The notes beneath the pieces were generated by a model. The model was not told the origin of the DNA. It worked only from the letters and a program-made list of their open reading frames with translations, and searched no databases. Shown here one piece after another: positions 8,301 through 55,400 of a stretch of 64,000 nt of DNA. A program made the translations under genes and the position numbers. The stretch comes from Mimachlamys varia (taxonomy: Eukaryota; Mollusca; Bivalvia; Pectinida; Pectinidae): assembly GCA_947623455.1 (NCBI GenBank), contig OX392529.1:1984001-2048000 (forward strand). Direction: 5' to 3'. Numbering within the stretch: position 1 is the stretch's first letter; every line of letters starts with the position of its first letter.

Positions 8301-11300
8301 TTATGACAATACACCTACTTTATTTAGGTGATGTCCCAGGGTGATGAACGTGGGTTCCAGAAGTCTGTGAAGATCGTCGGCTTTCAGATGAAGGTCCTTG
8401 TGATGATGGCACGCGATTATCTCCATAACCTGTATGGGGCCGCCAGTGCCATCTATAGGCTTATCCTACATCTGTTCAGGTAAGTACTATCAATGTTAGT
8501 CCTACATCTGTTCAGGTAAGTATCATCAATGTTAGTTCTACATCTGTTCAGGTAAGTATCATCAATGTTAGTCCTACATCTGTTCAGGTAAGTATCATCA
8601 ATGTATGTCCTACATCTGTTCAGGTAAGTATCATCAATGTTAGTCCTACATCTGTTCAGGTAAGTATCATTAATGTTGTCCTACATCTGTTCAGGTGTGT
8701 ATCATCAATGTTAGTCCTACATCTGTTCAGGTAATTATCATCAATGTTAGTCCTACATCAGTTCAGGTAAGTATCATCAATGTTAGTCCTACATCTGTTC
8801 AGGTAAGTATCATCAATGTTAGTCCTACATCTGTTCAGGTAAGTATCATCAATGTTAGTCCTACATCTGTTCAGGTAAGTATCATCAATGTTAGTCCTAC
8901 ATCTGTTCAGGTAAGTATCATCAATGTTAGTTCTACATCTGTTCAGGTAAGTATCATCAATGTTAGTTCTACATCTGTTCAGGTAAGTATCATCAATGTT
9001 AGTCCTACATCTGTTCAGGTAAGTATCATCAATGTTAGTCCTACATCTGTTCAGGTAAGTATCATCAATGTTAGTCCTACATCTGTTCAGGTAAGTATCA
9101 TTAATGTTGTCCTACATCTGTTCAGGTGTGTATCATCAATGTTAGTCCTACATCTGTTCAGGTAATTATCATCAATGTTAGTCCTACATCTGTTCAGGTA
9201 AGTATCATCAATGTTAGTCCTACATCTGTTCAGGTAAGTATCATCAATGTTAGTCCTACATCTGTTCAGGTAATTATCATCAATGTTAGTCCTACATCTG
9301 TTCAGGTAAGTATCATCAATGTTAGTCCTACATCTGCTCAGGTAAGTATCATCAATGTTAGTCCTACATCTGCTCAGGTAAGTAACATCAATGTTAGTCC
9401 TACATCTGTTCAGGTAAGTATTATCAATGCTAGCTGTTGTACGTACATTTGATGTACTTATTGCTGATTTAGATTGGTGCTAGCTGTTGTACGTACATTT
9501 GATGTGCTTATAGCTGATGTAGATTGGTGCTAGCGGTTGTACGTACAGTTGATGTGCTTATAGCTGATTTAGATTGGTGCTAGCTGTTGTACGTACATTT
9601 GAGTTTCTTGTTGCTGATTGGTGCTAGCTGTTGTACATACATTTGAGTTTCTTGTTGCTGATTGGTGCTAGCTGTTGTACATACAGTCAAACCTGGTTTA
9701 ACGGCCACCTCTATATAGCGGTCACCTGTCTATAACGGCCATCTCATGGTCCTCCCAATGCATTTAGCTATACAACATGCCTCCATATAACGGTCACCTG
9801 TCTAACGCGGCCAGCGGTCACTAAAAATGGCTGGAAATGCCAGAAAAACTTCTGAATAACGGCCACTGGATTGGTGCTAGCTGTTGTACGTACATTTGAG
9901 TTCCTTATTGCTGATTGGTTCTAGCTGTTGTACGTACATTTGAGTTCCTTATTGCTGATTGGTGCTAGCTGTTGTACGTACATTTGAGTTCCTTATTGCT
10001 GATCGGTGCTTGCTGTTGTACGTACATTTGAGTTCCTTATTGCTGATTGGTGCTAGCTGTTGTACGTACATTTGAGTTCCTTATTGCTGATTGGTGCTAG
10101 CTGTTGTACGTACATTTGAGTTCCTTATTGCTGATTGGTGCTAGCTGTTGTACGTACATTTGAGTTCCTTATTGCTGATTGGTGCTAGCTGTTGTACGTA
10201 CATTTGAGTTCCTTATTGCTGATTGGGGCTAGCTGTTGTACATACATTAGAGTTCCTTATTGCTGATTGGTGGTAGCTGTTGTACATACATTTGATGTGC
10301 TTTTTGCTGATGTAGATCGGTGCTAGCTGTTGTACATACATTTGAGTTCCTTATTGCTGATTGGGGCTAGCTGTTGTACGTACATTTGAGTTCCTTATTG
10401 CTGATTGGTGCTAGCTGTTGTACATACATTAGAGTTCCTTATTGCTGATTGGTGCTAGCTGTTGTACGTACATTTGAGTTCCTTATTGCTGATTGGTGCT
10501 AGCTGTTGTACATACATTAGAGTTCCTTATTGCTGATTGGTGCTAGCTGTTGTACATACTGTAAACGTACTTAATTTGGCGCAATCAAATTTTAGCGCAT
10601 TTTTAGTGTTTGTCATATTAGCGCAATGATAAATTCGCGCATCAGTGAAAATAACTATATAAGCAGTATATTAAAACTCCAATTAGCGTAACTATATTTT
10701 AGCGCAAAACTTTCAACGCGAAAAGCGCTAAAATAAGATTACCGCGAAAATATGTACGTTTACAGTACATTAGAGTTCCTTATTGCTGATTGGTGCTAGC
10801 TGTTGTACATACATTAGAGTTCCTTATTGCTGATTGGGGCTAGCTGTTGTACGTACATTTGAGTTCCTTATTGCTGATTGGTTCTAGCTGTTGTACGTAC
10901 ATTAGAGTTCCTTATTGCTGATTGGTTCTAGCTGTTGTACGTACATTTGAGTTCCTTATTGCTGATTGGTTCTAGCTGTTGTACGTACATTTGAGTTCCT
11001 TATTGCTGATTGGTGCTAGCTGTTGTACGTACATTAGAGTTCCTTATTGCTGATTGGTGCTAGCTGTTGTACATACATTAGAGTTCCTTATTGCTGATTG
11101 GTTCTAGCTGTTGTACATACATTAGAGTTCCTTATTGCTGATTGGTGCTAGCTGTTGTACATACATTTGAGTTCCTTATTGCTGATTGGTGCTAGCTGTT
11201 GTACGTACATTAGAGTTCCTTATTGCTGATTGGTGCTAGCTTACTGTTGATGTCTTTAACAGATATGTACGTCCCAGTCTACATGCGATGCCTATACTAG

Positions 11301-14300: not shown

Positions 14301-17300
14301 GGGTCAAATCTGTTCAAACTTTTAAACGATTACTTTGGAAATACCAAAAGCCCTAGAAGCATGATATTTGGCTGAAAGGTTCCTTGGATGAAGCTTGACA
14401 AATTTGCGAAAAAAGATGACCTTGGCCCATATTCAAGGTCACAGGGGTCAAATCTGTTACAAGTTTTGAGCAACTTCTTCTGATAAACTCAAAGACCTAG
14501 AGACATGATATTTAGCTGGTAGCTTCCTTGGATGAAAGCCAATCAAAATTTGCAAATGAAAATGACATTGTCTTACAAGGTCACAGGGGTGAAATATGTT
14601 TTAATCTTAACATGTTTTTCTGAATGTCTTACAGTAAAAGATTTTAGGTGATTTTAGGGTTACACTATGATATAAGTCAGAGATTGATACCAGGTGAGCG
14701 ATGCAGGCCCTTCGGTATACGGTCTTGTTTGTACTGTAGAGATATCCTACTAAATGGTTTTTTTTTTGTGATGAGCACAGTTCTACATGAAGAGGAGAAA
14801 TTAGCACATCTACAGGTAGTGATGAGTGTGATGGAGTACCTCCCCAAAACTACAGGTAAGATTGGCACAGGTATTACCTCCTCCACCCACCACCCACCCA
14901 CCCACACCATAAAAACCCCAACAGGTAAGTTTGTTACAGGTATTACCTCCTCCACCCACCACCCACCCACCCACCCACACCATAAAAACCCTAACAGGTA
15001 AGTTTGTGACAGGCATTACCTCCTCCACCCACCACCCACCCACCCACACCATAAAAACCCCAACAGGTAAGTTTGTTACAGGTATTACCTCCTCCACCCA
15101 CCACCCACCCACCCACCCACACCATAAAAACCCCAACAGGTAAGTTTGTTACAGGTATTACCTCCTCCACCCACCAACCACCCACCCACACCATAAAAAC
15201 CCCAACAGGTAAGTTTGTTACAGGTATTACCCCCCCCCCCCCCCCCCCAATCACCCACCAACCTCCAAAAAACTACATGTAAGTTTGTTAACAGATGTAA
15301 CTCGCCTCCCAAAAACTACAGGTAAGATTGTCTAAGGTATTACACTCCTACCCCCCAAAAAAGACTACATGTACTCCCATAAAAGAGTGTTAAGTTCACT
15401 TTTGTTGCTATAACTATATTAAAAAACGTGCAGTGAAAATTACTAAATTATCTCTGTTTCAGATGATATTAAGGAATGGTGCTTGATAAATACAGAGGAT
15501 GGCAGCAGAGACAATATTCTTACCTCAGCCTTCAAGGCAGCTCACCAGTGTAAGTAAGCCTACTAAATACAGGACAGCTCACCAGTGTAAGTTACCCTAC
15601 TGAACACAGGACAGCTCACCAGTGTAAGTTACCCTACTAAACACAGGACAGCTCACCAGTGTAAGTTACCCTACTAAACACAGGACAACTCACCAGTGTA
15701 AGTAACCCTACTAGACACAGGACAGCTCACCAGTGTAAGTTAGCCTACTAAACACAGGACCGCTCACCAGTGTAATTAACCCTACTAGACACAGGACAAC
15801 TCACCAGTGTAAGTTACCCTACTAAACACAGGACAGCTCACCAGTGTAAGTTAGCCTACTGAACACAGGACAGCTCACCAGTGTAAGTTACCCTACTAGA
15901 CACAGGACAGCTCACCAGTGTAAGTTACCCTACTAAACACAGGACAGCTCACCAGTGTAAGTTAGCCTACCAAACACAGGATAGCTCACCAGTGTAATTA
16001 ACCCTACTAAACACAGGACAGCTCAACAGTGTAAGTTACCCTACTAAACACAGGATAGCTCACCAGTGTAATTAACCCTACTAAACACAGGACAGCTCAC
16101 CAGTGTAAGTTACCCCACTAAACACAGGACAGCTCACCAGTGTAAGTAAGTCTATTAAATACAGGACAGCTCACCAGTGTAAGTTACCCCACTAAACACA
16201 GGACAGCTCACCAATGTAAGTTAGCCTACTAAACACAGGACAGCTCACCAGTGTAAGTTAGCCTACTGAACACAGGACAGCTCACCAGTGTAAGTTACCC
16301 TACTAGACACAGGACAGCTCACCAGTGTAAGTTACCCTACTAAACACAGGACAGCTCACCAGTGTAAGTTAGCCTACCAAACACAGGATAGCTCACCAGT
16401 GTAATTAACCCTACTAAACACAGGACAGCTCAACAGTGTAAGTTACCCTACTAAACACAGGATAGCTCACCAGTGTAATTAACCCTACTAAACACAGGAC
16501 AGCTCACCAGTGTAAGTTACCCCACTAAACACAGGACAGCTCACCAGTGTAAGTAAGTCTATTAAATACAGGACAGCTCACCAGTGTAAGTTACCCCACT
16601 AAACACAGGACAGCTCACCAATGTAAGTTAGCCTACTAAACACAGGACAGCTCACCAGTGTAAGTTAGCCTACTAAACACAGGACAGCTCACCAGTGTAA
16701 GTTAGCCTACTAAACACAGGACAACTCACCAGTGTAAGTTAGTCTACTAAACACAGGACAGCTCACCAGTGTAAGTTACTCTACTAAACACAGGACAGCT
16801 CACCAGTGTAAGTTACCCTACTAAACACAGGACAGCTCACCAGTGTAAGTTACCCTACTAAACACAGGACAGCTCACCAGTGTAAGTAACCCAACTAGAC
16901 ACAGGACAGCTCACCAGTGTAAGTAACCCTACTAAACACAGGACAGCTCACCAGTGTAAGTTAGCCTACTAAACACAGGACAGCTTACCAGTGTAAGTTA
17001 CCCCACTAAACACAGGACAGCTCACCAGTGTAAGTTACCCTACTAAACACAGGACAGCTCACCAGTGTAAGTTAGACTACTAAACACAGGACAGCTCACC
17101 AGTGTAAGTTACCCCACTAAACACAGGACAGCTCACCAGTGTCAGTAACCCTACAAAACACAGGACAACTCACCAGTGTTAGTTAGTCTACTAAACACAG
17201 GACAGCTCACCAGTGTAAGTTAGCCTACTAAACACAGGACAGCTCAACAGTGTAAGTTAGCCTACTAAACACAGGACAGCTCACCAGTGTAAGTTACCCT

Positions 17301-20300
17301 ACTAAACACAGGACAGCTCACCAGTGTAAGTTAGCCTACTGAACACAGGACAGCTCACCAGTGTAAGTTAGCCTACTGAACACAGGACAGCTCACCAGTG
17401 TAAGTTACCCCACTAAACACAGGACAGCTCACCAGTGTAAGTTAGCCTACTAAACACAGGACAGCTCAGCAGTGTAAGTTACCCTACTAAACACAGGACA
17501 GCTCACCAGTGTAAGTAACCCTACTAAACACAGGACAGCTCACCAGTGTAAGTTAGCCTACTGAACACAGGACAGCTCAACAGTGTAAGTTACCCTACTA
17601 AACACAGGACAGCTCACCAGTGTAAGTAACCCTACTAAACACAGGACAGCTCACCAGTGTAATTAACCCTACTAAACACAGGACAGCTCAACAGTGTAAG
17701 TTACCCTACTAAACACAGGATAGCTCACCAGTGTAATTAACCCTACTAAACACAGGACAGCTCACCAGTGTAAGTTACCCCACTAAACACAGGACAGCTC
17801 ACCAGTGTAAGTAAGTCTATTAAATACAGGACAGCTCACCAGTGTAAGTTACCCCACTAAACACAGGACAGCTCACCAATGTAAGTTAGCCTACTAAACA
17901 CAGGACAGCTCACCAGTGTAAGTTAGCCTACTGAACACAGGACAGCTCACCAGTGTAAGTTACCCTACTAGACACAGGACAGCTCACCAGTGTAAGTTAC
18001 CCTACTAAACACAGGACAGCTCACCAGTGTAAGTTAGCCTACCAAACACAGGATAGCTCACCAGTGTAATTAACCCTACTAAACACAGGACAGCTCAACA
18101 GTGTAAGTTACCCTACTAAACACAGGATAGCTCACCAGTGTAATTAACCCTACTAAACACAGGACAGCTCACCAGTGTAAGTTACCCCACTAAACACAGG
18201 ACAGCTCACCAGTGTAAGTAAGTCTATTAAATACAGGACAGCTCACCAGTGTAAGTTACCCCACTAAACACAGGACAGCTCACCAATGTAAGTTAGCCTA
18301 CTAAACACAGGACAGCTCACCAGTGTAAGTTAGCCTACTAAACACAGGACAGCTCACCAGTGTAAGTTAGCCTACTAAACACAGGACAACTCACCAGTGT
18401 AAGTTAGTCTACTAAACACAGGACAGCTCACCAGTGTAAGTTACTCTACTAAACACAGGACAGCTCACCAGTGTAAGTTACCCTACTAAACACAGGACAG
18501 CTCACCAGTGTAAGTTACCCTACTAAACACAGGACAGCTCACCAGTGTAAGTAACCCAACTAGACACAGGACAGCTCACCAGTGTAAGTAACCCTACTAA
18601 ACACAGGACAGCTCACCAGTGTAAGTTAGCCTACTAAACACAGGACAGCTTACCAGTGTAAGTTACCCCACTAAACACAGGACAGCTCACCAGTGTAAGT
18701 TACCCTACTAAACACAGGACAGCTCACCAGTGTAAGTTAGACTACTAAACACAGGACAGCTCACCAGTGTAAGTTACCCCACTAAACACAGGACAGCTCA
18801 CCAGTGTCAGTAACCCTACAAAACACAGGACAACTCACCAGTGTTAGTTAGTCTACTAAACACAGGACAGCTCACCAGTGTAAGTTAGCCTACTAAACAC
18901 AGGACAGCTCAACAGTGTAAGTTAGCCTACTAAACACAGGACAGCTCACCAGTGTAAGTTACCCTACTAAACACAGGACAGCTCACCAGTGTAAGTTAGC
19001 CTACTGAACACAGGACAGCTCACCAGTGTAAGTTAGCCTACTGAACACAGGACAGCTCACCAGTGTAAGTTACCCCACTAAACACAGGACAGCTCACCAG
19101 TGTAAGTTAGCCTACTAAACACAGGACAGCTCAGCAGTGTAAGTTACCCTACTAAACACAGGACAGCTCACCAGTGTAAGTAACCCTACTAAACACAGGA
19201 CAGCTCACCAGTGTAAGTTAGCCTACTGAACACAGGACAGCTCAACAGTGTAAGTTACCCTACTAAACACAGGACAGCTCACCAGTGTAAGTAACCCTAC
19301 TAAACACAGGACAGCTCACCAGTGTAAGTAACCCTACTAAACACAGGACAGCTCACCAGTGTAAGTTAGCCTACTGAACACAGGACAGCTCATCAATGTA
19401 AGTTACTCTACTAGACACAGGACAGCTCACCAGTGTAAGTAACCCTACTAAACACAGGACAGCTCACCAGTGTAAGTTAGCCTACTAAACACAGGACAGC
19501 TCACCAGTGTAAGTTACCCCACTAAACACAGGACAGCTCACCAGTGTAAGTTAGCCTACTAAACACAGGACAGCTCACCAGTGTAAGTTACTCTACTAAA
19601 CACAGGACAGCTCACCAGTGTAAGTAACCCTACTAAACACAGGACAGCTCACCAGTGTAAGTTACCCTACTAAACACAGGATAGCTCACCAGTGTAATTA
19701 ACCCTACTAAACACAGGACAGCTCACCAGTGTAAGTTACCCCACTAAACACAGGACAGCTCACCAGTGTAAGTAAGTCTATTAAATACAGGACAGCTCAC
19801 CAGTGTAAGTTACCCCACTAAACACAGGACAGCTCACCAATGTAAGTTAGCCTACTAAACACAGGACAGCTCACCAGTGTAAGTTAGCCTACTAAACACA
19901 GGACAGCTCACCAGTGTAAGTTAGACTACTAAACACAGGACAGCTCACCAGTGTAAGTTACCCCACTAAACACAGGACAGCTCACCAGTGTCAGTAACCC
20001 TACAAAACACAGGACAACTCACCAGTGTTAGTTAGTCTACTAAACACAGGACAGCTCACCAGTGTAAGTTAGCCTACTAAACACAGGACAGCTCAACAGT
20101 GTAAGTTAGCCTACTAAACACAGGACAGCTCACCAGTGTAAGTTACCCTACTAAACACAGGACAGCTCACCAGTGTAAGTTAGCCTACTGAACACAGGAC
20201 AGCTCACCAGTGTAAGTTAGCCTACTGAACACAGGACAGCTCACCAGTGTAAGTTACCCCACTAAACACAGGACAGCTCACCATTGTAAGTTAGCCTACT

Positions 20301-23300
20301 AAACACAGGACAGCTCAGCAGTGTGAGTTACCCTACTAAACACAGGACAGCTCACCAGTGTAAGTAACCCTACTAAACACAGGACAGCTCACCAGTGTAA
20401 GTTAGCCTACTGAACACAGGACAGCTCAACAGTGTAAGTTACCCTACTAAACACAGGACAGCTCACCAGTGTAAGTAACCCTACTAAACACAGGACAGCT
20501 CACCAGTGTAAGTAACCCTACTAAACACAGGACAGCTCACCAGTGTAAGTTAGCCTACTGAACACAGGACAGCTCATCAATGTAAGTTACTCTACTAGAC
20601 ACAGGACAGCTCACCAGTGTAAGTAACCCTACTAAACACAGGACAGCTCACCAGTGTAAGTTAGCCTACTAAACACAGGACAGCTCACCAGTGTAAGTTA
20701 CCCCACTAAACACAGGACAGCTCACCAGTGTAAGTTAGCCTACTAAACACAGGACAGCTCACCAGTGTAATAACTCTACTAAACACAGGACAGCTCACCA
20801 GTGTAAGTAACCCTACTAAACACAGGACAGCTCACCAATGTAAGTTACCCTACTAAACACAGTACGGCTCACCAGTGTAAGTTAGCCTACTAAACACAGG
20901 ACAGCTCACCAGTGTAAATTAGCCTACTAAACACAGGACAGCTCACCAGTGTAAGTAACCCTACTAAACACAGGACAGCTCACCAGTGTAAGTTACCCCA
21001 CTAAACACAGGACAGCTCACCCGTGTAAGTTAGCCTACTAAACACAGGACAGCTCACCAGTGTAAGTTACCCTACTAAACATAGGACAGCTCACCTGTGT
21101 AAGTTACCCTAAAAAATACAGGACAGCTCACCAATGTAAGTTACCCTACTAAACACAGTACGGCTCACCAGTGCAAGTTAGTCTACTAAACAGGACAGCT
21201 CACCAGTGTAAGTTAGTCTACTAAACACAGGACAGCTCACCAGTGTAAGTAACCCTACTAAACACAGGACAGCTCACCAGTGTAAGTTACCCCACTAAAC
21301 ACAGGACAGCTCACCCGTGTAAGTTAGCCTACTAAACAGGACAGCTCACCAGTGTAAGTTAGTCTACTAAACACAGGACAGCTCACCAGTGTAAGTTAGC
21401 CTACTAAACACAGGACAGCTCACCAGTGTAAGTAACCCTACTAAACACAGGACAGCTCACCAGTGTAAGTTACCCCACTAAACACAGGACAGCTCACCAG
21501 TGTAAGTTAGCCTACTAAACACAGGACAGCTCACCAGTGTAAGTTACCCTACTAAACATAGGACAGCTCACCTGTGTAAGTTACCCTAAAAAATACAGGA
21601 CAGCTCACCAATGTAAGTTACCCTACTAAACACAGTACGGCTCACCAGTGCAAGTAAGTCTACTAAACAGGACAGCTCACCAGTGTAAGTTAGTCTACTA
21701 AACACAGGACAGCTCACCAGTGTAAGTAACCCTACTAAACACAGGACAGCTCACCAGTGTAAGTTACCCTACTAAACACAGGACAGCTCACCAGTGTAAG
21801 TTAGCCTACTAAATACAGGACAGCTCACCAGTGTAAGTTGCCCTACTAAACACAGGACAGCTCACCAGTGTAAGTTACCCTACTAAACACAGGACAGCTC
21901 AACGGTGTAAGTTAGCCTACTAAACACAGGACAGCTCAACAGTGTAAGTTAGCCTACTAAATACAGGACAGCTCACCAGTGTAAGTTAGCCTACTAAACA
22001 CAGGACAGCTCACCAGTGTTAGTTAGTCTACTAAACACAGGACAGCTCACCAGTGTAAGTTAGCCTACTAAACACAGGACAGCTCACCAGTGTAAGTTAG
22101 CCTACTAAACACAGGACAGCTCACCAGTGTAAGTTACCCTACCAAACACAGGACAGCTCACCAGTGTAAGTTACCCCACTAAACACAGGACAGCTCACCA
22201 GTGTAAGTTACCCTACTAAACACAGGACAGCTCAACAGTGTAAGTTAGCCTACTAAACACAGGACAGCTCACCAGTGTAAGTTAGCCTACTAAATACAGG
22301 ACAGCTCACCAGTGTAAGTTAGCCTACTAAATACAGGACAGCTCACCAGTGTAAGTTAGCCTACTAAACACAGGACAGCTAACCAGTGTAAGTTACCCCA
22401 CTAAACACAGGACAGCTCACCAGTGTAAGTTACCCCACTAAACACAGGACAGCTCACCAGTGTAAGTTAGCCTACTAAATACAGGACAGCTCACCAGTGT
22501 AAGTTAGCCTACTAAACACAGGACAGCTCACCAGTGTTAGTTAGTCTACTAAACACAGGACAGCTCACCAGTGTAAGTTAGCCTACTAAACACAGGACAG
22601 CTCACCAGTGTAAGTTAGCCTACTAAACACAGGACAGCTCACCAGTGTAAGTTACCCTACCAAACACAGGACAGCTCACCAGTGTAAGTTACCCCACTAA
22701 ACACAGGACAGCTCACCAGTGTAAGTTACCCTACTAAACACAGGACAGCTCAACAGTGTAAGTTAGCCTACTAAACACAGGACAGCTCACCAGTGTAAGT
22801 TAGCCTACTAAATACAGGACAGCTCACCAGTGTAAGTTAGCCTACTAAATACAGGACAGCTCACCAGTGTAAGTTAGCCTACTAAACACAGGACAGCTCA
22901 CCAGTGTAAGTTACCCTACTAAACATAGGACAGCTCACCTGTGTAAGTTACCCTAAAAAATACAGGACAGCTCACCAATGTAAGTTACCCTACTAAACAC
23001 AGTACGGCTCACCAGTGCAAGTTAGTCTACTAAACAGGACAGCTCACCAGTGTAAGTTAGTATACTAAACACAGGACAGCTCACCAGTGTAAGTTAGCCT
23101 ACTAAACACAGGACAGCTCACCAGTGTAAGTAACCCTACTAAACACAGGACAGCTCACCAGTGTAAGTTACCCCACTAAACACAGGACAGCTCACCAGTG
23201 TAAGTTAGCCTACTAAACACAGGACAGCTCACCAGTGTAAGTTACCCTACTAAACATAGGACAGCTCACCTGTGTAAGTTACCCTAAAAAATACAGGACA

Positions 23301-26300
23301 GCTCACCAATGTAAGTTACCCTACTAAACACAGTACGGCTCACCAGTGCAAGTAAGTCTACTAAACAGGACAGCTCACCAGTGTAAGTTAGTCTACTAAA
23401 CACAGGACAGCTCACCAGTGTAAGTAACCCTACTAAACACAGGACAGCTCACCAGTGTAAGTTACCCTACTAAACACAGGACAGCTCACCAGTGTAAGTT
23501 AGCCTACTAAATACAGGACAGCTCACCAGTGTAAGTTGCCCTACTAAACACAGGACAGCTCACCAGTGTAAGTTACCCTACTAAACACAGGACAGCTCAC
23601 CAGTGTAAGTTACCCTACTAAACACAGGACAGCTCAACGGTGTAAGTTAGCCTACTAAACACAGGACAGCTCAACAGTGTAAGTTAGCCTACTAAATACA
23701 GGACAGCTCACCAGTGTAAGTTAGCCTACTAAACACAGGACAGCTCACCAGTGTTAGTTAGTCTACTAAACACAGGACAGCTCACCAGTGTAAGTTAGCC
23801 TACTAAACACAGGACAGCTCACCAGTGTAAGTTAGCCTACTAAACACAGGACAGCTCACCAGTGTAAGTTACCCTACCAAACACAGGACAGCTCACCAGT
23901 GTAAGTTACCCCACTAAACACAGGACAGCTCACCAGTGTAAGTTACCCTACTAAACACAGGACAGCTCAACAGTGTAAGTTAGCCTACTAAACACAGGAC
24001 AGCTCACCAGTGTAAGTTAGCCTACTAAATACAGGACAGCTCACCAGTGTAAGTTAGCCTACTAAATACAGGACAGCTCACCAGTGTAAGTTAGCCTACT
24101 AAACACAGGACAGCTAACCAGTGTAAGTTACCCCACTAAACACAGGACAGCTCACCAGTGTAAGTTACCCCACTAAACACAGGACAGCTCACCAGTGTAA
24201 GTTAGCCTACTAAACACAGGACAGCTCATCAATGTAAGTTACTCTACTAGACACAGGACAGCTCACCAGTGTTAGTTAGTCTACTAAACACAGGACAGCT
24301 CACCAGTGTAAGTTAGCCTACTGAACACAGGACAGCTCACCAGTGTAAGTTACCCTACTAGACACAGGACAACTCACCAGTGTTAGTTAGTCTACTAAAC
24401 ACAGGACAGCTCACCAGTGTTAGTTAGTCTACTAAACACATGCCCACCAGTGTTAGTTAGTCTACTCAACACAGGACAGCTCACCAGTGTAAGTTACCCT
24501 ACTAAACACAGGACAGCTCACCAGTGTAAGTTACCCTACTAGACACAGGACAACTCACCAGTGTTAGTTAGTCTACTAAACACAGGACAGCTCACCAGTG
24601 TTAGTTAGTCTACTAAACACATGCCCACCAGTGTTAGTTAGTCTACTCAACACAGGACAGCTCACCAGTGTAAGTTACCCTACTAAACACAGGACAGCTC
24701 ACCAGTGTTAGTTAGTCTACTAAACACAGGACAGCTCACCAGTGTAAGTTACCCTACTAAACACAGGACAGCTCACCAGTGTAAGTTACCCTACTAAACA
24801 CAGGACAGCTCACCAGTGTAAGTTACCCCACTAAACACAGGACAGCTCACCAGTGTAAGTTAGCCTACTGAACACAGGACAGCTCACCAGTGTAAGTTAC
24901 CCTACTAGACACAGGACAACTCACCAGTGTTAGTTAGTCTACTAAACACAGGACAGCTCACCAGTGTTAGTTAGTCTACTAAACACATGCCCACCAGTGT
25001 TAGTTAGTCTACTCAACACAGGACAGCTCACCAGTGTAAGTTACCCTACTAAACACAGGACAGCTCACCAGTGTTAGTTAGTCTACTAAACACAGGACAG
25101 CTAACCAGTGTAAGTTACCCCACTAAACACAGGACAGCTCACCAGTGTAAGTTACCCCACTAAACACAGGACAGCTCACCAGTGTAAGTTAGCCTACTAA
25201 ACACAGGACAGCTCATCAATGTAAGTTACTCTACTAGACACAGGACAGCTCACCAGTGTTAGTTAGTCTACTAAACACAGGACAGCTCACCAGTGTAAGT
25301 TAGCCTACTGAACACAGGACAGCTCACCAGTGTAAGTTACCCTACTAGACACAGGACAACTCACCAGTGTTAGTTAGTCTACTAAACACAGGACAGCTCA
25401 CCAGTGTTAGTTAGTCTACTAAACACATGCCCACCAGTGTTAGTTAGTCTACTCAACACAGGACAGCTCACCAGTGTAAGTTACCCTACTAAACACAGGA
25501 CAGCTCACCAGTGTTAGTTAGTCTACTAAACACAGGACAGCTCACCAGTGTAAGTTACCCTACTAAACACAGGACAGCTCACCAGTGTAAGTTACCCTAC
25601 TAAACACAGGACAGCTCACCAGTGTAAGTTAGCCTACTGAACACAGGACAGCTCACCAGTGTAAGTTACCCCACTAAACACAGGACAGCTCACCAGTGTA
25701 AGTTAGCCTACTAAACACAGGACAGCTCAGCAGTGTAAGTTACCCTACTAAACACAGGACAGCTCACCAGTGTAAGTAACCCTACTAAACACAGGACAGC
25801 TCACCAGTGTAAGTTAGCCTACTGAACACAGGACAGCTCAACAGTGTAAGTTACCCTACTAAACACAGGACAGCTCACCAGTGTAAGTAACCCTACTAAA
25901 CACAGGACAGCTCACCAGTGTAAGTTAGCCTACTGAACACAGGACAGCTCATCAATGTAAGTTACTCTACTAGACACAGGACAGCTCACCAGTGTAAGTA
26001 ACCCTACTAAACACAGGACAGCTCACCAGTGTAAGTTAGCCTACTAAACACAGGACAGCTCACCAGTGTAAGTTACCCCACTAAACACAGGACAGCTCAC
26101 CAGTGTAAGTTAGCCTACTGAACACAGGACAGCTCACCAGTGTAAGTTACTCTACTAAACACAGGACAGCTCACCAGTGTAAGTAACCCTACTAAACACA
26201 GGACAGCTCACCAGTGTAAGTAACCCTACAAAACACAGGACAGCTCACCAGTGTAAGTTAGCCTACTAAACACAGGACAGCTCACCAGTGTAAATTAGCC

Positions 26301-38300: not shown

Positions 38301-41300
38301 GAGAGGGTACTAATTGAATGACTAATTGTTACAGGAGAAGGTATAAATTGAGTGGCTATAATTATTACATGAGAGGGTACTAATTGAGTGGCTGTAATTA
38401 TTACAGGAGAGGGTACCTATTGATTAGCTGTAATTGTTACAGGAGAGGGTACTTATTGAGTGGCTGTAATTATTACAAGAGAGGGTACTAATTGAGTGAC
38501 TGTAATTGTTACAGGAGAGGGTACTAATTGAGTGGCTGTAATTATTACAGGAGAGGGTACTTATTGAGTGGCTGTAATTGTTACAGGAGAGGGTACTAAT
38601 TGAATGACTAATTGTTACAGGAGAAGGTATAAATTGAGTGACTATAATTATTACATGAGAGGGTACTAATTGAGTGGCTGTAATTATTACAGGAGAGGGT
38701 ACCTATTGATTTGCTGTAATTGTTACAGGAGAGGGTACTTATTGAGTGGCTGTAATTATTACAAGAGAGGGTACTAATTGAGTGACTGTAATTGTTACAG
38801 GAGAGGGTACTAATTGAGTGGCTGTAATTATTACAGGAGAGGGTACTTATTGAGTGGCTGTAATTGTTACAGGAGAGGGTACTAAATGAGTGGCTGTAAT
38901 TATTACAGGAGAGGGTACTAATTGAGTGGCTGTAATTAACAAGAAACACTTAGCACCAGTCTGTGTTACAGGAGAGGGTACTAATTGAGTGACTAATTGT
39001 TACAGGAGAGGGTACTAATTGAGTGGCTGTAACTATTACAGGAGAGGGTACTAATTGAGTGACTAATTATTACAGGAGAGGATACTAATTGAGTGACTAA
39101 TTGTTACAGGAGAGGGGACTAAATGAGTGGCTGTAATTATTACAGGAGAGGGTACTAATTGAGTGGCTGTAATTGTTACAGGAGAGGGTACTAATTGAGT
39201 GACTAATTATTACAGGAGAGGGTACTAATTGAGTGGCTGTAATTATTACAGGAGAGGGTACTAATTGAGTGACTAATTGTTACAGGAGAGGGTACTAATT
39301 GAGTGGCTGTAATTGTTACAGGAGAGGGTACTAATTGAGTGGCTGTAATTGTTACAGGAGAGGGTACTAATTGAGTGGCTGTAATTGTTACAGGACAGGG
39401 TACTAATTGAGTGGCTGTAATTAACAAGAAACACTTAGCACCAGTCTGTGTTACAGGAGAGGGTACTAATTGAGTGATTAATTGTTACAGGAGAGGGTAC
39501 TTATTGAGTGGCTGTAACTATTACAGGAGAGGGTACTAATTGAGTGACTAATTATTACAGGAGAGGGTACTAATTGAGTGACTAATTGTTACAGGAGAGG
39601 GTACTAAATGAGTGGCTGTAATTATTACAGGAGAAGGTACTTATTGAGTGGCTGTAATTGTTACAGGAGAGGGTACTAATTGAGTGACTAATTATTACAG
39701 GAGAGGGTACTAATTGAGTGGCTGTAATTATTACAGGAGAGGGTACTAATTGAGTGACTAATTGTTACAGGAGAGGGTACTAATTGAGTGGCTGTAATTG
39801 TTACAGGAGAGGTTACTAATTGAATGACTAATTGTTACAGGAGAAGGTATAAATTGAGTGGCTGTAATTATTACAGAAGAGGGTACTAATTGAGTGGCCG
39901 GAACTGTTACAGGAGAGGGTACTAATTGAGTGGCTATAATTGTTACAGGAGATGGTACTAATTGAGTGGCTGTAATTATTACAGGAGAGGGTTCTATTTG
40001 AGTGGCTGTAATTATTACAGGAGAGGGTTCTAATTGAGTGGCTGTAATTGTTACAGGAGAGGGTACTAATTGAGTGGCTATAATTATTACAGGAGAGGGT
40101 ACTTATTGATTAGCTGTAATTGTTACATGAGAGGGTACTAATTGAGTGACTGTAATTGTTACAGGAGAGGGTACTAATTGAGTGGCTATAATTGTTACAG
40201 GAGAGGGTACTAATTGAGTGGCTGTAATTGTTACAGGAGAGGGTACTAATTGAGTGGCTGTAATTATTACAGAAGAGGGTACGAAATGAGTGGCTGTAAT
40301 TATTACAGGAGAGGGTACTAATTGAGTGACTGTAATTGTTACAGGAGAGGGTACTAATTGAGTGGCTGTTGTCTGGAAGTCCTGTGTGTTCCTCTCTGTC
40401 AGCTGATGTCTGGTGTTTCCTAGCCAGGTGAGATATACTTTTTTATTAGCTCACCTGGTCCGAAGGACCGAGGTGAGCTTATGCCATACCGTGGCGTCCA
40501 TCGTCCGTCCGTCCATCCGTCCGTTCGTAAACATTTTTTTAAACGACTTCTTCTCAATAACCACTGATAGGAAATCAGCCTAATTTGGCAGGAAGCATCC
40601 TTGGGTGCCCAGGATTCAAAATTGTGCTAATGGGTGGACTGACCCCCTAACGGGGTGAGGTGCGGGGCAAAAAAGGGTTATTTAGCTATATTGGTTTAAG
40701 CGACTTCTTATCCATAACCACTGATTGGAAATCAGCCTTATTTGGCAGAAAGCATCCCTAGGTGCTCAGGATTCAAAATTGTACTCGTGGTGGGACTGAC
40801 CCCCTAGGGGGCTGAGAGGCGAGCCAAAAAGAAAATATTTTATCATGATTACCTAGATACCAATGTATCCAGGTGAGCGATACAGGCCCCCTGGGCCTCT
40901 TGTTTACACATGAACTGGTAAACAATGTAGCATTCTAGCTATCTTGATGGGACAAAGATTTTAATTGATATGTATGCCACAGCCTTGAATCTTAAAATGT
41001 TATATGTATAGTCTATCATCATATTATCATGTTCTTTAGTCCTTAATTGTGTGTATGTTCTATAGGCACCGTGCTTCGTCAACCAAAAGGCCCAGAGTAC
41101 TGATGTTTGGCTAGTAGGTACCTGGGATGGAGTGCGACAAAGTTTCCTCATAGGAATGTCTTTGACCTATATTCAAAGTCACAATAGTCAAATATGTTAA
41201 AACCTTTTAACAATTTTCATATCAATAACCTTATCATAATAATTACCCTGTGTTTTTACCTTGTAGATATGGCAGCGCTGATCTGTGTTACAGTCACATT

Positions 41301-44300: not shown

Positions 44301-47300
44301 GCATCGTGCCAAAGGTGAGTGAGCTTTTTATATTTTGCATTTTATTCTTATTCATTTTATAATTCCAAAATTTTTTACAAAAAAATATCCAAAGTGTCTC
44401 CTCATAATATTCATTTAATTTTCCGTTTGTTATGAAACATGACAGCATATATATATATATATATAGAACCTAACGTAGGCATTCAAATCAAACAGATCCG
44501 TCACGGCATAACTTTTAATTTGGTACCAGGGGCTGTTATTATAGTTAAGAAATTATCATTTGTGATATTTAGTACATATTGTACATACAAACATCCTGAC
44601 CTGGGAAATAAACAATAACTTACAAGAAAGAGGAAGAATCAAACTAGTAAGAACGTTACCACCAGGCCAAAAAATCCGGACCAGTTGAAATGGTTCGTAA
44701 TCCTGATATCGTTCCGGAAGGTTGTATCTCCATGTAACACCATGTGTATTTCTGGAGTACCGGTAATACAGAATTATCAACACTGCTAAATTCCATATGA
44801 CACCCCTTTTCCGACTAAAATGACGTCAAATTTGCCCCATAAAAATTGGGTCTCGTAAATAAATTATGATTTCCTTGGTCATACCAAACGGAAAACATTT
44901 AAAATATTATGAGATGAAACAGGAAACAGTTCTCAATACGTATACCAAATTTCTTTAAGAATGTCTTATGAACAAAGCCAGGAAAATTCATTGAAAAATG
45001 TTGAAAATACAAAGAATAGATAGCAAAATAAAAAAATAATTACTCACTTACTGACTCTAATGACGTCACGGGGGAACAATCACAAAAGGGGGATAACTGT
45101 AACCTGTGTTTCCCAACAACATTATACAGGTGGACTTCAATGCTCACCAGAAAATACCTTGTGTGTCAACCGTCGGAAACTCAATATGTAAGGACATTAT
45201 TGGGATTATTTTTAGAGATTTTGGGCATTTTTAGAATTTTCGTTGGACTGACCTTTAAGTGGAATCCACTGTATGTTGGTGTATGGTCTGATCTGTAGAT
45301 GTGTAGTTTGATCTACCTGACCGGAGCACAGTTATGGCGGGAGGTTTGGGACCAGTCTGTCATTAATATATGTTGGTGTATGGTCTGATCTGTAGATGTG
45401 TAGTTTGATCTACCTGACCGGAGCACAGTTATGTCGGGAGGTTTGGGACCAGTCTGTCATTAATATATGTTGTTGTATGGTCTGAATCTGTAGATGTTTA
45501 GTTTGATCTACCTGACCGGAGCACAGTTATGGCGGGAGGTTTGGGACCAGTCTGTCATTAATATATGTTGGTGTATGGTCTGATCTGTAGATGTTTAGTT
45601 TGACCTACCTGACCGGAGCACAGTTATGTCGGGAGGTTTGGGGCCAGTCTGTCCAGCAGGAGGTTCAGTCAGCCCTTGTTGAGAACGTGAAGAGACTATG
45701 GGAAGGAGTTTTTGTGTCGGACTGGATGTCTATCCCTCACACTCAGATCTGCCTCGGCAAACTGCTGCAGTACTCCGGGCAGGTGATACACCAGTTCACC
45801 AACTCACACCTGCTCAAGGTAAGAACTTGCTGTCAATTGCCTACTCACATCTTCTTATACCCACATTTGCTGGTATTTTATCAAATTTGTAAATTTCGTG
45901 CCCTTCAGACTTCACGTTCCCCTCATGGGAGGATTTGAAGTTTACTGGCTAAGTTAGAGGGAAGTATGAGATATATACAGTCAGGTAACTGGCTAGGTTA
46001 GAGGGAAGTATAAGATATATACAGTCAGGTAACTGGCTAGGTTAGAGGGAAGTATGAGATATATACAGTCAGGTAACTGGCTAAGTTAGAGGGAAGTATG
46101 AGATATATACAGTCAGGTAACTGGCTAAGTTAGAGGGAAGTATGAGATATATACAGTCAGGTAACTGGCTAAGTTAGAGGGAAGTATAAGATATATACAG
46201 TCAGGTAACTGGCTAAGTTAGAGGAAGTATGAGATATATACAGTCAGGTAACTAGCTAAGTTAGAGGGAAGTATGAGATATATACAGTCAGGTAACTGGC
46301 TAAGTTAGAGGAAGTATGAGATATATACAGTCAGGTAACTGGCTAAGTTAGAGGAAGTATGAGATATATACAGTCAGGTAACTGGCTAAGTTAGAGGAAG
46401 TATGAGATATATACAGTCTGGTAACTGGCTAAGGTAGAGGAAGTATGAGATATATACAGTCAGGTAACTGGCTAAGTTAGAGGGAAGTATGAGATATATA
46501 CAGTCAGGTAACTGGCTAAGTTAGAAGAAGTATAAGATATATACAGTCAGGTAACTGGCTAAGTTAGAGGGAAGTATGAGATATATACAGTCAGGTAACT
46601 GGCTAAGTTAGAGGGAAGTATGAGATATATACAGTCAGGTAACTGGCTAAGTTAGAGGGAAGTATGAGATATATACAGTCAGGTAACTTGCTAAGTTAGA
46701 GGAAGATTAAGATATATACAGTCAGGTAACTGGCTAAGTTAGAGGGAGTATAAGATATATACAGTCAGGTAACTGGCTAAGTTAGAGGGAGTATAAGATA
46801 TATACAGTCAGGTAACTGGCTAGGTTAGAGGGAAGTATGAGATATATACAGTCAGGTAACTGGCTAAGTTAGAGGGAAGTATGAGATATATACAGTCAGG
46901 TAACTGGCTAAGTTAGAGGGAAGTATGAGATATATACAGTCAGGTAACCTGCTAAGTTAGAGGAAGATTAAGATATATACAGTCAGGTAACTGGCTAAGT
47001 TAGAGGGAAGTATGAGATATATACAGTCAGGTAACTGGCTAAGTTAGAGGGAAGTATGAGATATATACAGTCAGGTTACTGGCTAAGTTAGAGGGAAGTA
47101 TGTGATATATACAGTCAGGTAACTTGCTAAGTTAGAGGAAGATTAAGATATATACAGTCAGGTAACTGGCTAAGTTAGAGGGAGTATAAGATATATACAG
47201 TCAGGTAACTGGCTAAGTTAGAGGGAGTATAAGATATATACAGTCAGGTAACTGGCTAGGTTAGAGGGAAGTATGAGATATATACAGTCAGGTAACTGGC

Positions 47301-49447: not shown

Positions 49448-49485
<38 letters not shown>

Positions 49486-52400
49486 TGGGAGGCAGATATC
49501 TTTCACCTCACATGTAACATTTTTCAAATTCTCCAAAATCATTGATTCAATTTCAGTAAAATTTTGCAAGGTGTTAAGATCGAAGGCAAAATTAAAGTTC
49601 TTTATTAGATGTATGTTACCCTTCAGGGGCCTGAGAGGCAGGGCCAAAACAGGTAAAGTTGACAAAAGTTTCAGCAATCATTTTCTCCAGACCCAGAGAA
49701 GCTAATCAAATACTGTGGATGAATAGGTCTCAAGGTGTTTTTTCACAATTGTATTATATTTTACACAGCAGAGTAAGGTCCTACAGAAGGTGTCGACAGT
49801 GTTTGGGGGAGTGATGACGTGTTTATATTTTACAAAGCAGAGTAAGGTCCTACAGAAGGTGTCGACAGTGTTTGGGGGAGTGATGACGTGTTTATATTTT
49901 ACACAGCAGAGTAAGGTCCTACAGAAGGTGTCGGCAGTGTTTGGGGGAGTGATGACGTGTTTATATTTTACACAGCAGAGTAAGGTCCTACAGAAGGTGT
50001 CGACAGTGTTTGGGGGAGTGATGACGTGTTTATATTTTACACAGCAGAGTAAGGTCCTACAGAAAGTGTCGACAGTGTTTGGGGGAGTGATGACGTGTTT
50101 ATATTTTACACAGCAGAGTAAGGTCCTACAGAAGGTGTCGACAGTGTTTGGGGGAGTGATGACGTGTTTATATTTTACACAGCAGAGTAAGGTCCTACAG
50201 AAGGTGTCGGCAGTGTTTGGGGGAGTGATGACGTGTTTATATTTTACACACCAGAGTAAGGTCCTACAGAAGGTGTGGACAGTGTTTGGGGGAGTGATGA
50301 CGTGTTTATATTTTACACAGCAGAGTAAGGTCCTACAGAGAGTGTCGACAGTGTTTGGGGGAGTGATGACGTGTTTATATTTTACACAGCAGAGTAAGGT
50401 CCTACAGAGAGTGTCGACAGTGTTTGGGGGAGTGATGACGTGTTTATATTTTACACAGCAGAGTAAGGTCCTACAGAAGGTGTCGACAGTGTTTGGGGGA
50501 GTGATGACGTTTTTATATCTTACACAGCAGATTAAGGTCCTACAGAAGGTGTCGGCAGTGTTTGGGGGAGTGATGACGTGTTTATATTTTACACAGAGTA
50601 AGGTCCTACAGAAGGTGTCGGCAGTGTTTGGGAGAGTGATGACGTGTTTATATTTTACACAGCAGAGTAAGGTCCTACAGAAGGTGTCGACAGTGTTTGG
50701 GGGAGTGATGACGTGTTTATATTTTACACAGCAGAGTAAGGTCCTACAGAAGGTGTCGACAGTGTTTGGGGGAGTGATGACGTGTTTATATTTTACACAG
50801 CAGAGTAAGGTCCTACAGAAGGTGTCGGCAGTGTTTGTGGAAGTGATGACGTGTTTATATTTTACACAGCAGAGTAAGGTCCTACAGAAGGTGTCGGCAG
50901 TGTTTGTGGAAGTGATGACGTGTTTATATTTTACACAGCAGAGTAAGGTCCTACAGAAGGTGTCGACAGTGTTTGGGGGAGTGATGATGTGTTTATATTT
51001 TACACAGAGTAAGGTCCTACAGAAGGTGTCGGCAGTGTTTGGGGGAGTGATGACGTGTTTATATTTTACACAGCAGAGTAAGGTCCTACAGAAGGTGTCG
51101 GCAGTGTTTGTGGAAGTGATGACGTGTTTATATTTTACACAGCAGAGTAAGGTCCTACAGAAGGTGTCGACAGTGTTTGGGGGAGTGATGACGTGTTTAT
51201 ATTTTACACAGAGTAAGGTCCTACAGAAGGTGTCGGCAGTGTTTGGGGGAGTGATGACGTGTTTATATTTTACACAGCAGAGTAAGGTCCTACAGAAGGT
51301 GTCGGCAGTGTTTGTGGAAGTGATGACGTGTTTATATTTTACACAGCAGAGTAAGGTCCTACAGAAGGTGTCGACAGTGTTTGGGGGAGTGATGATGTGT
51401 TTATATTTTACACAGAGTAAGGTCCTACAGAAGGTGTCGACAGTGTTTGGGGGAGTGATGACGTGTTTATATTTTACACAGAGTAAGGTCCTTCAGAAGG
51501 TGTCGGCATTGTTTGGGGGAGTGATGACGTGTTTATATTTTACACAGAGTAAGGTCCTACAGAAGGTGTCGGCAGTGTTTGGGGGAGTGATGACGTGTTT
51601 ATATTTTACAAAGCAGAGTAAGGTCCTACAGAAGGTGTCGACAGTGTTTGGGGGAGTGATGACGTGTTTATATTTTACACAGCAGAGTAAGGTCCTACAG
51701 AAGGTGTCGGCAGTGTTTGGGGGAGTGATGACGTGTTTATATTTTACACAGCAGAGTAAGGTCCTACAGAAGGTGTCGGCAGTGTTTGGGGGAGTGATGA
51801 CGTGTTTATATTTTACACAGAGTAAGGTCCTACAGAAGGTGTCGGCAGTGTTTGGGAGAGTGATGACGTGTTTATATTTTACACAGCAGAGTAAGGTCCT
51901 ACAGAAGGTGTCGACAGTGTTTGGGAGAGTGATGACGTGTTTATATTTTACACAGCAGAGTAAGGTCCTACAGAAGGTGTCGACAGTGTTTGGGGGAGTG
52001 ATGACGTGTTTATATTTTACACAGCAGAGTAAGGTCCTACAGAAGGCGTCGACAGTGTTTGTGGGAGTGATGACGTCTTTATATTTTACACAGCAGAGTA
52101 AGGTCCTACAGAAGGCGTCGACAGTGTTTGGGGGAGTGATGATGTGTTTATATTTTACACAGCAGAGTAAGGTCCTACAGAAGGCGTCGACAGTGTTTGG
52201 GGGAGTGATGACGTGTTTATATTTTGCACAGCAGAGTAAGGTCCTACAGAAGGTGTCGACAGTGTTTGGGGGAGTGATGATGTGTTTTTCTCTCATATCT
52301 CGCCATGTTGGATAGAGTTTGCCCATGTAAGAAAGCTATGTAAGAAAAATCTATCTTACATAGCATTTCACGCGACGTGACGTCACAATTGCTCAACAAT

Positions 52401-55400
52401 GACGTGACGTCACGAATACGATAAACTCTGATGCCAGAAAGAGAAAACGACGGTGTGATAAAATTAAAATCTTTCACAAAATTTTAACCATAAACACCAG
52501 GAAGAGGAGATTAATTTTTCTACGCAAACTGCGTTTGCAAATATAGGGTATGCTCATTTTCGTCGGAAAAGCTCAAGGAAAAAGTTGAAATTTCAAAATG
52601 GTAGCCTGTTTAAACGTATTTTCATGGTTTTTGACCTTATTCGGGTAGTTGATATGAGAGAAAAAGACTCTTTCATTATGTGTGTATGTAGGATAGGGAT
52701 ATTCCACCCTCGGGATCACAAAATGTGGTAAAACCCTCGGCAAGCCTCGGGTTTCACCACATTTTGTGACCCCTCGGGTGGAATATCCCTATCCTACATA
52801 CACGCATATGAAAGAGTCTTATAATATTTTACACAGCAGAGTAAGGTCCTACAGAAGGTGTCGACAGTGTTTGGGGGACTGATGACAGACACCAGCTGTG
52901 TAGTACATCACTGGAGCATGGAGGCATTTACACAGTTTGCCGAGGACACTGCTCACGAGACTGTGGTCCCTGACTGTATGGCACATGACAGCAGACTCCA
53001 GGATTGTTTGGTAGCCTACCTCAACAAGGTAAAGTTAGTACATCTGTCGCAGAATAAGGTATCACATCAGAGAGTAAGGTCCAATATCAGTAAGTTCCAA
53101 CATCAGAGAGTAAGGTCCCACATCAGAGAGTAACGTCCCGAATTGGAGAGTAAGGTCCCACATCGGAGAGTAAGGTCCCACATCGGAGAGTAAGGTCCCA
53201 CATCAGAGAGTAAGGTCCCAAAGTAGACAGTAAGGTCCCATATCAGAATAAGGTCCCACATCAGAGAGTATGGTCCCATCACAGAGAGTATGGTCCCACA
53301 TCAGAGAGTAACGTCCCGAATTGGAGAGTAAGGTCCCACATCGGAGAGTAAGGTCCCACATCGGAGAGTAAGGTCCCACATCGGAGAGTAAGGTCCCACA
53401 TCAGAGAGTAAGGTCCCACATCAGAGAGTAAGGTCCAATAACAGAGAGTATGGTCCCATCACAGAGAGTATGGTCCCAAAGTAGAGAGTAAGGTACCACA
53501 TCAGAGAGTAAGGTCCCAAAGTAGATAGTAAGGTCCCATATCAGAATAAGGTCCCACATCAGAGAGTATGGTCCCAAAGTAGAGAGTAAGGTCCCACATC
53601 AGAGAGTAAGGTCCCAAAGTAGATAGTAAGGTCCCATATCAGAATAAGGTCCAACATCAGAGAGTATGGTCCCAAAGTAGAGAGTAATGTCCCACATCAG
53701 AGAGTAAGGTCCCACATCAGAGAGTAAGGTCCCACATCGGAGAGTAATGTCCCACATCAGAGAGTAAGGTCCCACATCAGAGAGTAAGGTCCCACATCAG
53801 AGAGTAAGGTCCCACATCAGAGAGTATGGTCCCACATCAGAGGGTATGGTCCCATATCAGAGAGTAAGGTCCCACATCAGAGAGTAAGGTCCCACATCAG
53901 AGAGTAAGGTCCCACATCAGAGAGTAAGGTCCCACATCAGAGAGTATGGTCCCACATCAGAGAGTAACATCCCACATCAGAGAGAAAGGTTCCAAAGTAG
54001 ATAGTAAGGTCCCTCATTGGAGAGTAAGATCCCACATCAGAAAATAAGGTCCCATTTCAGAGAGTAAGGTCCCACCTACATCAGAGAGTAAGATGCCACA
54101 CCAGAGAGTAAGGTCCCATAGTAGATAGTAAGGCCCCATATCAGAATAAGGCCCACATCCGAGAGTAAGGTCCAATATCAGAGAGTAACGTCTCACATCG
54201 GAGAGTAAGGTCCCGAATCGGAGAATAAAGTCGAACATCGGAGAGTAAGGTCCTATATTAGGGAGTAAGGTCCCACATTGGAGAGTAACATCCCACATCG
54301 GAGAATAAAGTCGAATATCGGAGAGTAAGGTCCCACATCGGGAAGTAATGTTGAACATCAAAAGGTAAGGTCCCACATCAGAGAGTATAACGTCCAACAG
54401 AATATTGATTCCCTGTATGCTAGAAACCGCACTTGTCTTTAAAAACGATAATCATCCAAGATAGTTACCATTTACAATGAAAGTGGTTAATATTCTCCAG
54501 TTGGGACATGTGCATAAAAAAGTAAAATCTGATAGAACTGGCTTTGTTTACATAACCTCAGTTTCCATAAGGAGATAGAACTGGCTTTGTTTACATAACC
54601 TCAGTTTCCATAAGGAGATAGAACTGGCTTTGTTTACATAACCTCAGTTTCCATAAGGAGATAGAACTGGCTTTGTTTACATAACCTCAGTTTCCATAAG
54701 GAGATAGAACTGGCTTTGTTTACATAACCTCAATCTCCAGAGCTGGCTTTGTTTACATAACCTCAGTTTCCATAAGGAGATAGAACTGGATTTGTTTACA
54801 TAACCTCAGTTTCCATAAGGAGATAGAACTCCAGGCTTTGTTTACATAACCTCAGTTTCCATAAGGAGATAGAACTCCAGGCTTTGTTTACATAACCTCA
54901 GTTTCCATAAGGAGATAGAACTGGCTTTGTTTACATAACCTCAGTTTCCATAAGGAGATAAAACTCCAGGCTTTGTTTACATAACCTCAGTTTCCATAAG
55001 GAGATAGAACTGGCTTTGTTTACATAACCTCAGTTTCCATAAGGAGATTGAACTGGCTTTGTTTACATAACCTCAATCTCCAGAGCTGGCTTTGTTTACA
55101 TAACCTCAGTTTCCATAAGGAGATAGAACTCCAGGCTTTGTTTACATAACCTCAGTTTCCATAAGGAGATAGAACTCCAGGCTTTGTTTACATAACCTCA
55201 GTTTCCATAAGGAGATAGAACTGGCTTTGTTTACATAACCTCAGTTTCCATAAGGAGATAGAACTCCAGGCTTTGTTTACATAACCTCAGTTTCCATAAG
55301 GAGATAGAACTGGCTTTGTTTACATAACCTCAGTTTCCATAAGGAGATAGAACTGGCTTTGTTTACATAACCTCAATCTCCAGAGCTGGCTTTGTTTACA

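Follow-up and report, generated by a model that had tools for sequence, protein, structure and literature searches.

The closest described counterparts of the repeats that are presented here are the mirages of amphioxus, which were reportedly first described by Canestro and others in 2002. Mirages are tandem duplications of exon-intron boundaries that resemble minisatellites (PMC3087553, PMC3902484). They are reported for Adh3 and for the globins BflGb6 and BflGb9, the retinol dehydrogenase and presenilin loci being cited as similar (PMC3087553), and a second paper added those of PGBD5 and troponin C (PMC3902484). Their units are reported as 10-72 and 150-160 bp, their length is described as unstable, even somatically at Adh3, and RT-PCR is said to suggest that splicing is undisturbed (PMC3087553). 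Moreover, tandem repeats with a mean unit of 30 bp were reported at exon-intron boundaries in human segmental duplications, in which 27 intron modifications were counted (PMC2812944), and a duplication in the potato RdRp gene likewise crosses an intron-exon boundary (PMC4974935).

The preliminary description of the scallop locus that we analysed had named no described system of this kind, a view that is contradicted by the anatomy that is shared with the amphioxus mirages, as these papers describe it (PMC3087553, PMC3902484), and also by the human boundary repeats (PMC2812944). As in the mirages, the unit spans the boundary in all seven scallop arrays (in the case of exon 5 by way of a distal copy), both 5' (three) and 3' (four) boundaries are affected and many copies retain AG/GT, the inner copies of mirages being reported as homogenised (PMC3087553). 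The units of six of the seven arrays, which are 35 to 69 bp, fall within the range of the mirages, while the remaining one of 97 bp falls between the two reported ranges (PMC3087553). Unlike the mirages, the host is a scallop and seven arrays are found in one gene, with up to 346 copies compared with the 3 and 6 units that are reported for two BflGb6 haplotypes (PMC3087553). In the human case, new introns or alternative splicing reportedly result from the repeats (PMC2812944), and the single potato duplication made a new intron (PMC4974935), whereas in the scallop gene, judged from a protein alignment, no new intron was seen and the arrays seem to remain within old introns. The seven arrays are best read as a new, unusually dense set of boundary-spanning minisatellites of the amphioxus type. 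Introners are intron-linked repeats that occur as dispersed copies of one sequence. The scallop arrays differ from them, as had been proposed earlier, because within the window, i.e., the whole stretch of 64,000 nt that was analysed, each unit derives from its own exon edge. In the open-licence literature, which was searched by title and abstract opening, no boundary-spanning arrays were found in bivalves, and this is weak evidence of absence. Scallop genomes are rich in tandem repeats, which are reported to make up 21.7% of the A. pleuronectes genome (PMC10225492) and 11.46% of the A. purpuratus genome (PMC5905365).

Seven junction-spanning arrays in a FIRRM homolog

Fifteen successive exons of a single plus-strand gene, a homolog of FIRRM/C1orf112, lie in the window, and their spliced product of 625 residues matched PF14868 (DUF4487) in Pfam with an E value of 3.4e-83. 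Among the 31 relatives that were found for this product, the top four were scallops, Mizuhopecten (85% identity), Pecten (77%), Ylistrum (75%) and Argopecten (71%), in which the protein is named C1orf112 homolog or FIGNL1-interacting regulator of recombination and mitosis (FIRRM), and the remaining 27 had an identity of 40% or less. No PDB chain matched the product at E 0.001. The rows that were reported by TRF cover 42,083 of the 64,000 bases of the window versus 160 of the 1,877 exon bases.

Seven arrays of about 4 to 346 copies, in each of which the unit spans one exon-intron junction, were reproduced both by TRF and by a copy-by-copy alignment, and the earlier count of seven splice-junction arrays in 14 introns was thereby confirmed, 15 exons giving 14 introns. 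In the 5' splice-site arrays (n = 3; exons 3, 5 and 6), the unit joins the end of the exon to its 5' splice site, and the true exon edge comes first among the copies; in the 3' splice-site arrays (n = 4; exons 8, 9, 12 and 14), the unit joins the 3' splice site to the beginning of the exon, and the true exon edge comes last. The exons and arrays are as follows.

8328..8479, plus strand: exon 3, its last 16 nt being the probable seed of the intron 3 array
8464..9433, plus strand: exon 3 5' splice-site array, unit of 36 bp, 27 copies, beginning 16 nt inside the exon
14781..14855, plus strand: exon 5, its last 17 nt recurring in the distal array copy
14839..15357, plus strand: exon 5 5' splice-site array, core unit of 69 bp, about 6 copies (TRF)
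15463..15549, plus strand: exon 6, its last 12 nt being the probable seed of the intron 6 array
15538..28294, plus strand: exon 6 5' splice-site array, unit of 37 bp, 346 copies, 12 nt of exon
28828..30027, plus strand: exon 8 3' splice-site array, unit of 35 bp and longer variants, 18 nt of exon
30010..30091, plus strand: exon 8, its first 18 nt within the array unit
35984..40369, plus strand: exon 9 3' splice-site array, unit of 36 bp, 125 copies, 25 nt of exon
40345..40427, plus strand: exon 9, its first 25 nt within the array unit
45272..45653, plus strand: exon 12 3' splice-site array, unit of 97 bp, 3.9 copies, 63 nt of exon
45591..45818, plus strand: exon 12, its first 63 nt within the array unit
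49754..52287, plus strand: exon 14 3' splice-site array, unit of 69 bp, 37 copies, 50 nt of exon
52288..52836, unstranded: 549-bp spacer with inverted repeats between the array and exon 14
52837..53028, plus strand: exon 14, its first 50 nt within the array unit

The limits of the exon 5 array were widened by hand from 14852-15288 as given by TRF, and the left limit of the exon 8 array, which has 28 copies in 28992-30027 and extends leftward to about 28828, was also placed by hand. The mean divergence of the copies inside each array was 1.5 to 11%. Just 17 nt of intron 6 lie outside the array. The spacer before exon 14 is probably a later insertion, and it ends in bases that once more correspond to the intron side of a unit. 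The 3' units include 18, 25, 63 and 50 nt of exons 8, 9, 12 and 14, respectively. The 5' units include 16 nt of exon 3 and 12 nt of exon 6. The core of the exon 5 array is the weakest case, as its homogenised unit matches just the last 4 exon nucleotides exactly and has its best local exon match in an exon other than exon 5. Seven splice sites of this array were aligned copy by copy, and its diverged distal copy (15305-15357) carries the last 17 exon nucleotides with one mismatch together with the intron start, an alignment that was equalled by 0 of 1000 shuffles.

The exon 14 array forms one open frame of 841 codons (49790-52315) that is in frame with exon 14. Of the 7,986 candidates that were scored against its translation, none was a relative at E 0.001, and a coding role is unsupported.

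Other repeats and transposons also lie in the window. Directly downstream of exon 14, a 20-bp array (53041-54396) has the unit AGAGTAAGGTCCCACATCAG, which resembles bases 2-17 of that exon; 1 of 200 shuffles was as good, among nine non-spanning units that were tested. Judging by this resemblance, the 5' edge of exon 14 may be the source of the arrays that lie upstream and downstream of it. A 43-bp array at 54531-60341 is interrupted by some 2.3 kb whose 66-nt terminal inverted arms are 86% complementary, apparently a DNA transposon that inserted into the minisatellite. In intron 4 (11485-13263), perfect terminal inverted repeats of 22 nt bound a 1.8-kb stretch that is likely a DNA transposon as well. 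In intron 1 (4027-4820), minus-strand open reading frames matched DDE_Tnp_4 (9.8e-14) and HTH_Tnp_4 (6.5e-7), which marks a Harbinger-like transposon. Finally, diverged long repeats at 13740-14600 (intron 4) and 31835-33444 (intron 8) were found by eye to be related through the motif AAGGTCACAGGGGTCAAATCTGTTAAAACC and similar motifs and probably represent a dispersed repeat family.

Origin of the units and inner splice sites

In the case of six units, i.e., all but that of exon 5, the best match was the unit's own exon, which 0 to 3 of 200 shuffles equalled, and the earlier proposal of one geometry seeded by exon edges is borne out in that the units derive from their own exons. A protein alignment showed the seven exon edges to be conserved for the most part in the four scallops, and in six more distant molluscs the junctions align with a gap of at most one residue (exon 13/14 in two of the six and exon 11/12 in one of the six). 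No repeat insert was found at these junctions in the scallop proteins (three proteins for exon 14, as one of the four ends after exon 12). Because the exon edges are largely conserved among scallops, it was probably the exon that seeded the arrays and not the reverse.

The microhomology at the breakpoints was at the background level, with the longest shared words being 3 to 7 nt in eight comparisons over the seven arrays and the smallest P being 0.09 (TACCTCC, exon 5); a microhomology-led origin was rejected on this ground. When folding was compared with that of shuffled sequences, the exon 8 unit had a z of -2.37, the other six junction-spanning units -1.45 to 0.91 and three units of other arrays -1.89 to -0.42. 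Hairpin-driven slippage was also rejected, as just one of the seven units folds better than shuffles. Ordinary tandem duplication and later expansion suffice to explain the origin of the arrays.

GT or AG is intact in 543 of the 574 copies. The splice dinucleotides were not better conserved than other positions of the unit (P 0.50, circular shifts per unit), and neither the splice sites (P 0.25) nor the exon parts (P 0.38) were better conserved than the rest of the unit in circular shifts, as is expected if the copies are passive. Special constraint on the repeated splice sites, with a conservation no better than that of other unit positions, was dropped as an explanation. All 173 of the 173 upstream copies of the 3' splice site that have the exact motif bring a stop before the end of the exon, and reading through the true 5' splice site leads to a stop that starts at intron base 2 (exon 3) or 6 (exon 6); past that of exon 5, no stop was found within 120 nt. 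Judging by these reading frames, splicing at a wrong copy would cut the protein short in nearly all cases. The inner copies would be passive elements that are to be avoided by the cell, and exon definition likely picks the copy that is attached to the whole exon.

Excess at junctions and competing explanations

Sixteen intronic minisatellites were counted, seven of which span a junction. They were drawn from 63 TRF rows after overlapping rows of one array had been removed, and four arrays (introns 5, 7, 14 and 14) had their limits manually widened or joined. The array at 243-1406 (81 bp, 14 copies) was dropped for lying upstream of the first exon seen, and the rows at 9699-9745, 13271-13354, 13707-13738, 31709-31752 and 40495-40528 for their few copies or short units; also dropped were 31835-33444 (145 bp, 11 copies), 34649-35053, 40538-40871 and 49449-49484 (TG). 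By their coordinates, the dropped rows overlap no exon and their inclusion would therefore lower the spanning fraction, which is 7/18 with the two long dropped rows. In the null model, all arrays were collapsed to one unit and one unit was put at random within each intron or across its edge. The conservative form of this null gave 3.5 expected versus seven observed (P 0.022), or 3.65 expected (P 0.030) when the transposon stretches were subtracted; it supersedes an earlier geometry test of 15 arrays that omitted the intron 15 array (3.06 expected, P 0.008). With an intron floor of 500 nt, 1.3 were expected (P 8e-5), and with one of 1,000 nt, 0.8 (P 5e-6). Across the assumed intron lengths, the expectation was 0.6 to 3.7, with P falling from 0.03 to 0 of 400,000 draws. 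These P values are optimistic because the gene was picked for showing the pattern. Intron 6 with its array collapsed would consist of the 17 nt outside the array and 25 intronic nt of one unit, i.e., 42 nt. This seems short for an animal intron, and the most conservative null is thus probably too harsh.

Five further arrays (introns 1, 3, 7, 14 and 15) have one end at a distance of 12 to 36 nt from an exon that they do not include. These fit splice-site seeding no better than they fit a crowding of arrays close to exons or ancestral introns that were short. The junction excess is likely real, with a size that depends on the assumed ancestral intron length. The mechanism for starting duplication at junctions that had been suggested earlier found no firm support, as the excess hinges on ancestral intron length and the microhomology is at background.

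We consider it probable that the arrays grew from chance duplications of junctions and were tolerated since splicing is predicted to go on using the copy that is joined to the full exon. A chance tandem duplication would arise across one exon-intron junction and would be near-neutral, as whatever lies intronward of the outermost copy is removed together with the intron. The array would then expand and homogenise through slippage or unequal exchange while exon definition would keep the splice at the copy that belongs to the complete exon; it is assumed here that the outermost of many similar splice sites is consistently chosen. What would likely let such arrays persist is that normal splicing continues at the copy next to the exon. 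That seven of the 16 arrays exceed random placement means that something may favour junctions, and it is conceivable, though rather unlikely, that junctions are active hotspots at which a process linked to splicing or transcription, e.g., a paused polymerase or an RNA-DNA hybrid, starts the duplication. The 0.8 arrays that are expected with introns of at least 1 kb speak for such hotspots, as does the mean intron length of 1,506 bp that is reported for the related scallop Argopecten purpuratus (PMC5905365); they are opposed by the smaller excess under the conservative null in a gene that was picked for the pattern, and by the lack of a shared breakpoint feature, with microhomology at background and no consistent hairpin.

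The remaining explanations are far less probable than a chance origin of the duplications. If the arrays had first arisen inside introns and the exon edges had been recruited from their copies by splice-site sliding or exonisation, the recruitable splice signals in every unit would be accounted for; such a history is very improbable, given that four scallops largely share these edges, which can also be aligned in other molluscs, even though arrays of this kind are expected to turn over fast. A function of the tandem splice sites, e.g., as decoys or in the stepwise removal of long introns, would agree with the frequent retention of GT or AG, but the splice positions are conserved no better than the rest of the unit and wrong use would nearly always truncate the protein, and we give this idea equally little credence. 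Long arrays are difficult to assemble, yet the average difference between the copies within an array and the one rule that is common to seven different units make an assembly artefact the most improbable of these readings.

There is a small chance that scallop junctions, like those of amphioxus, are duplication hotspots genome-wide, so that introns gain thousands of bases while the protein is unchanged. If the pattern is general in scallops, boundary-spanning minisatellites would be a recurrent route of intron growth and splice-site multiplication rather than an oddity of amphioxus. They would also provide natural tests of junctions as mutational hotspots and of splice-site choice by a spliceosome that is faced with tens to hundreds of near-identical tandem sites.
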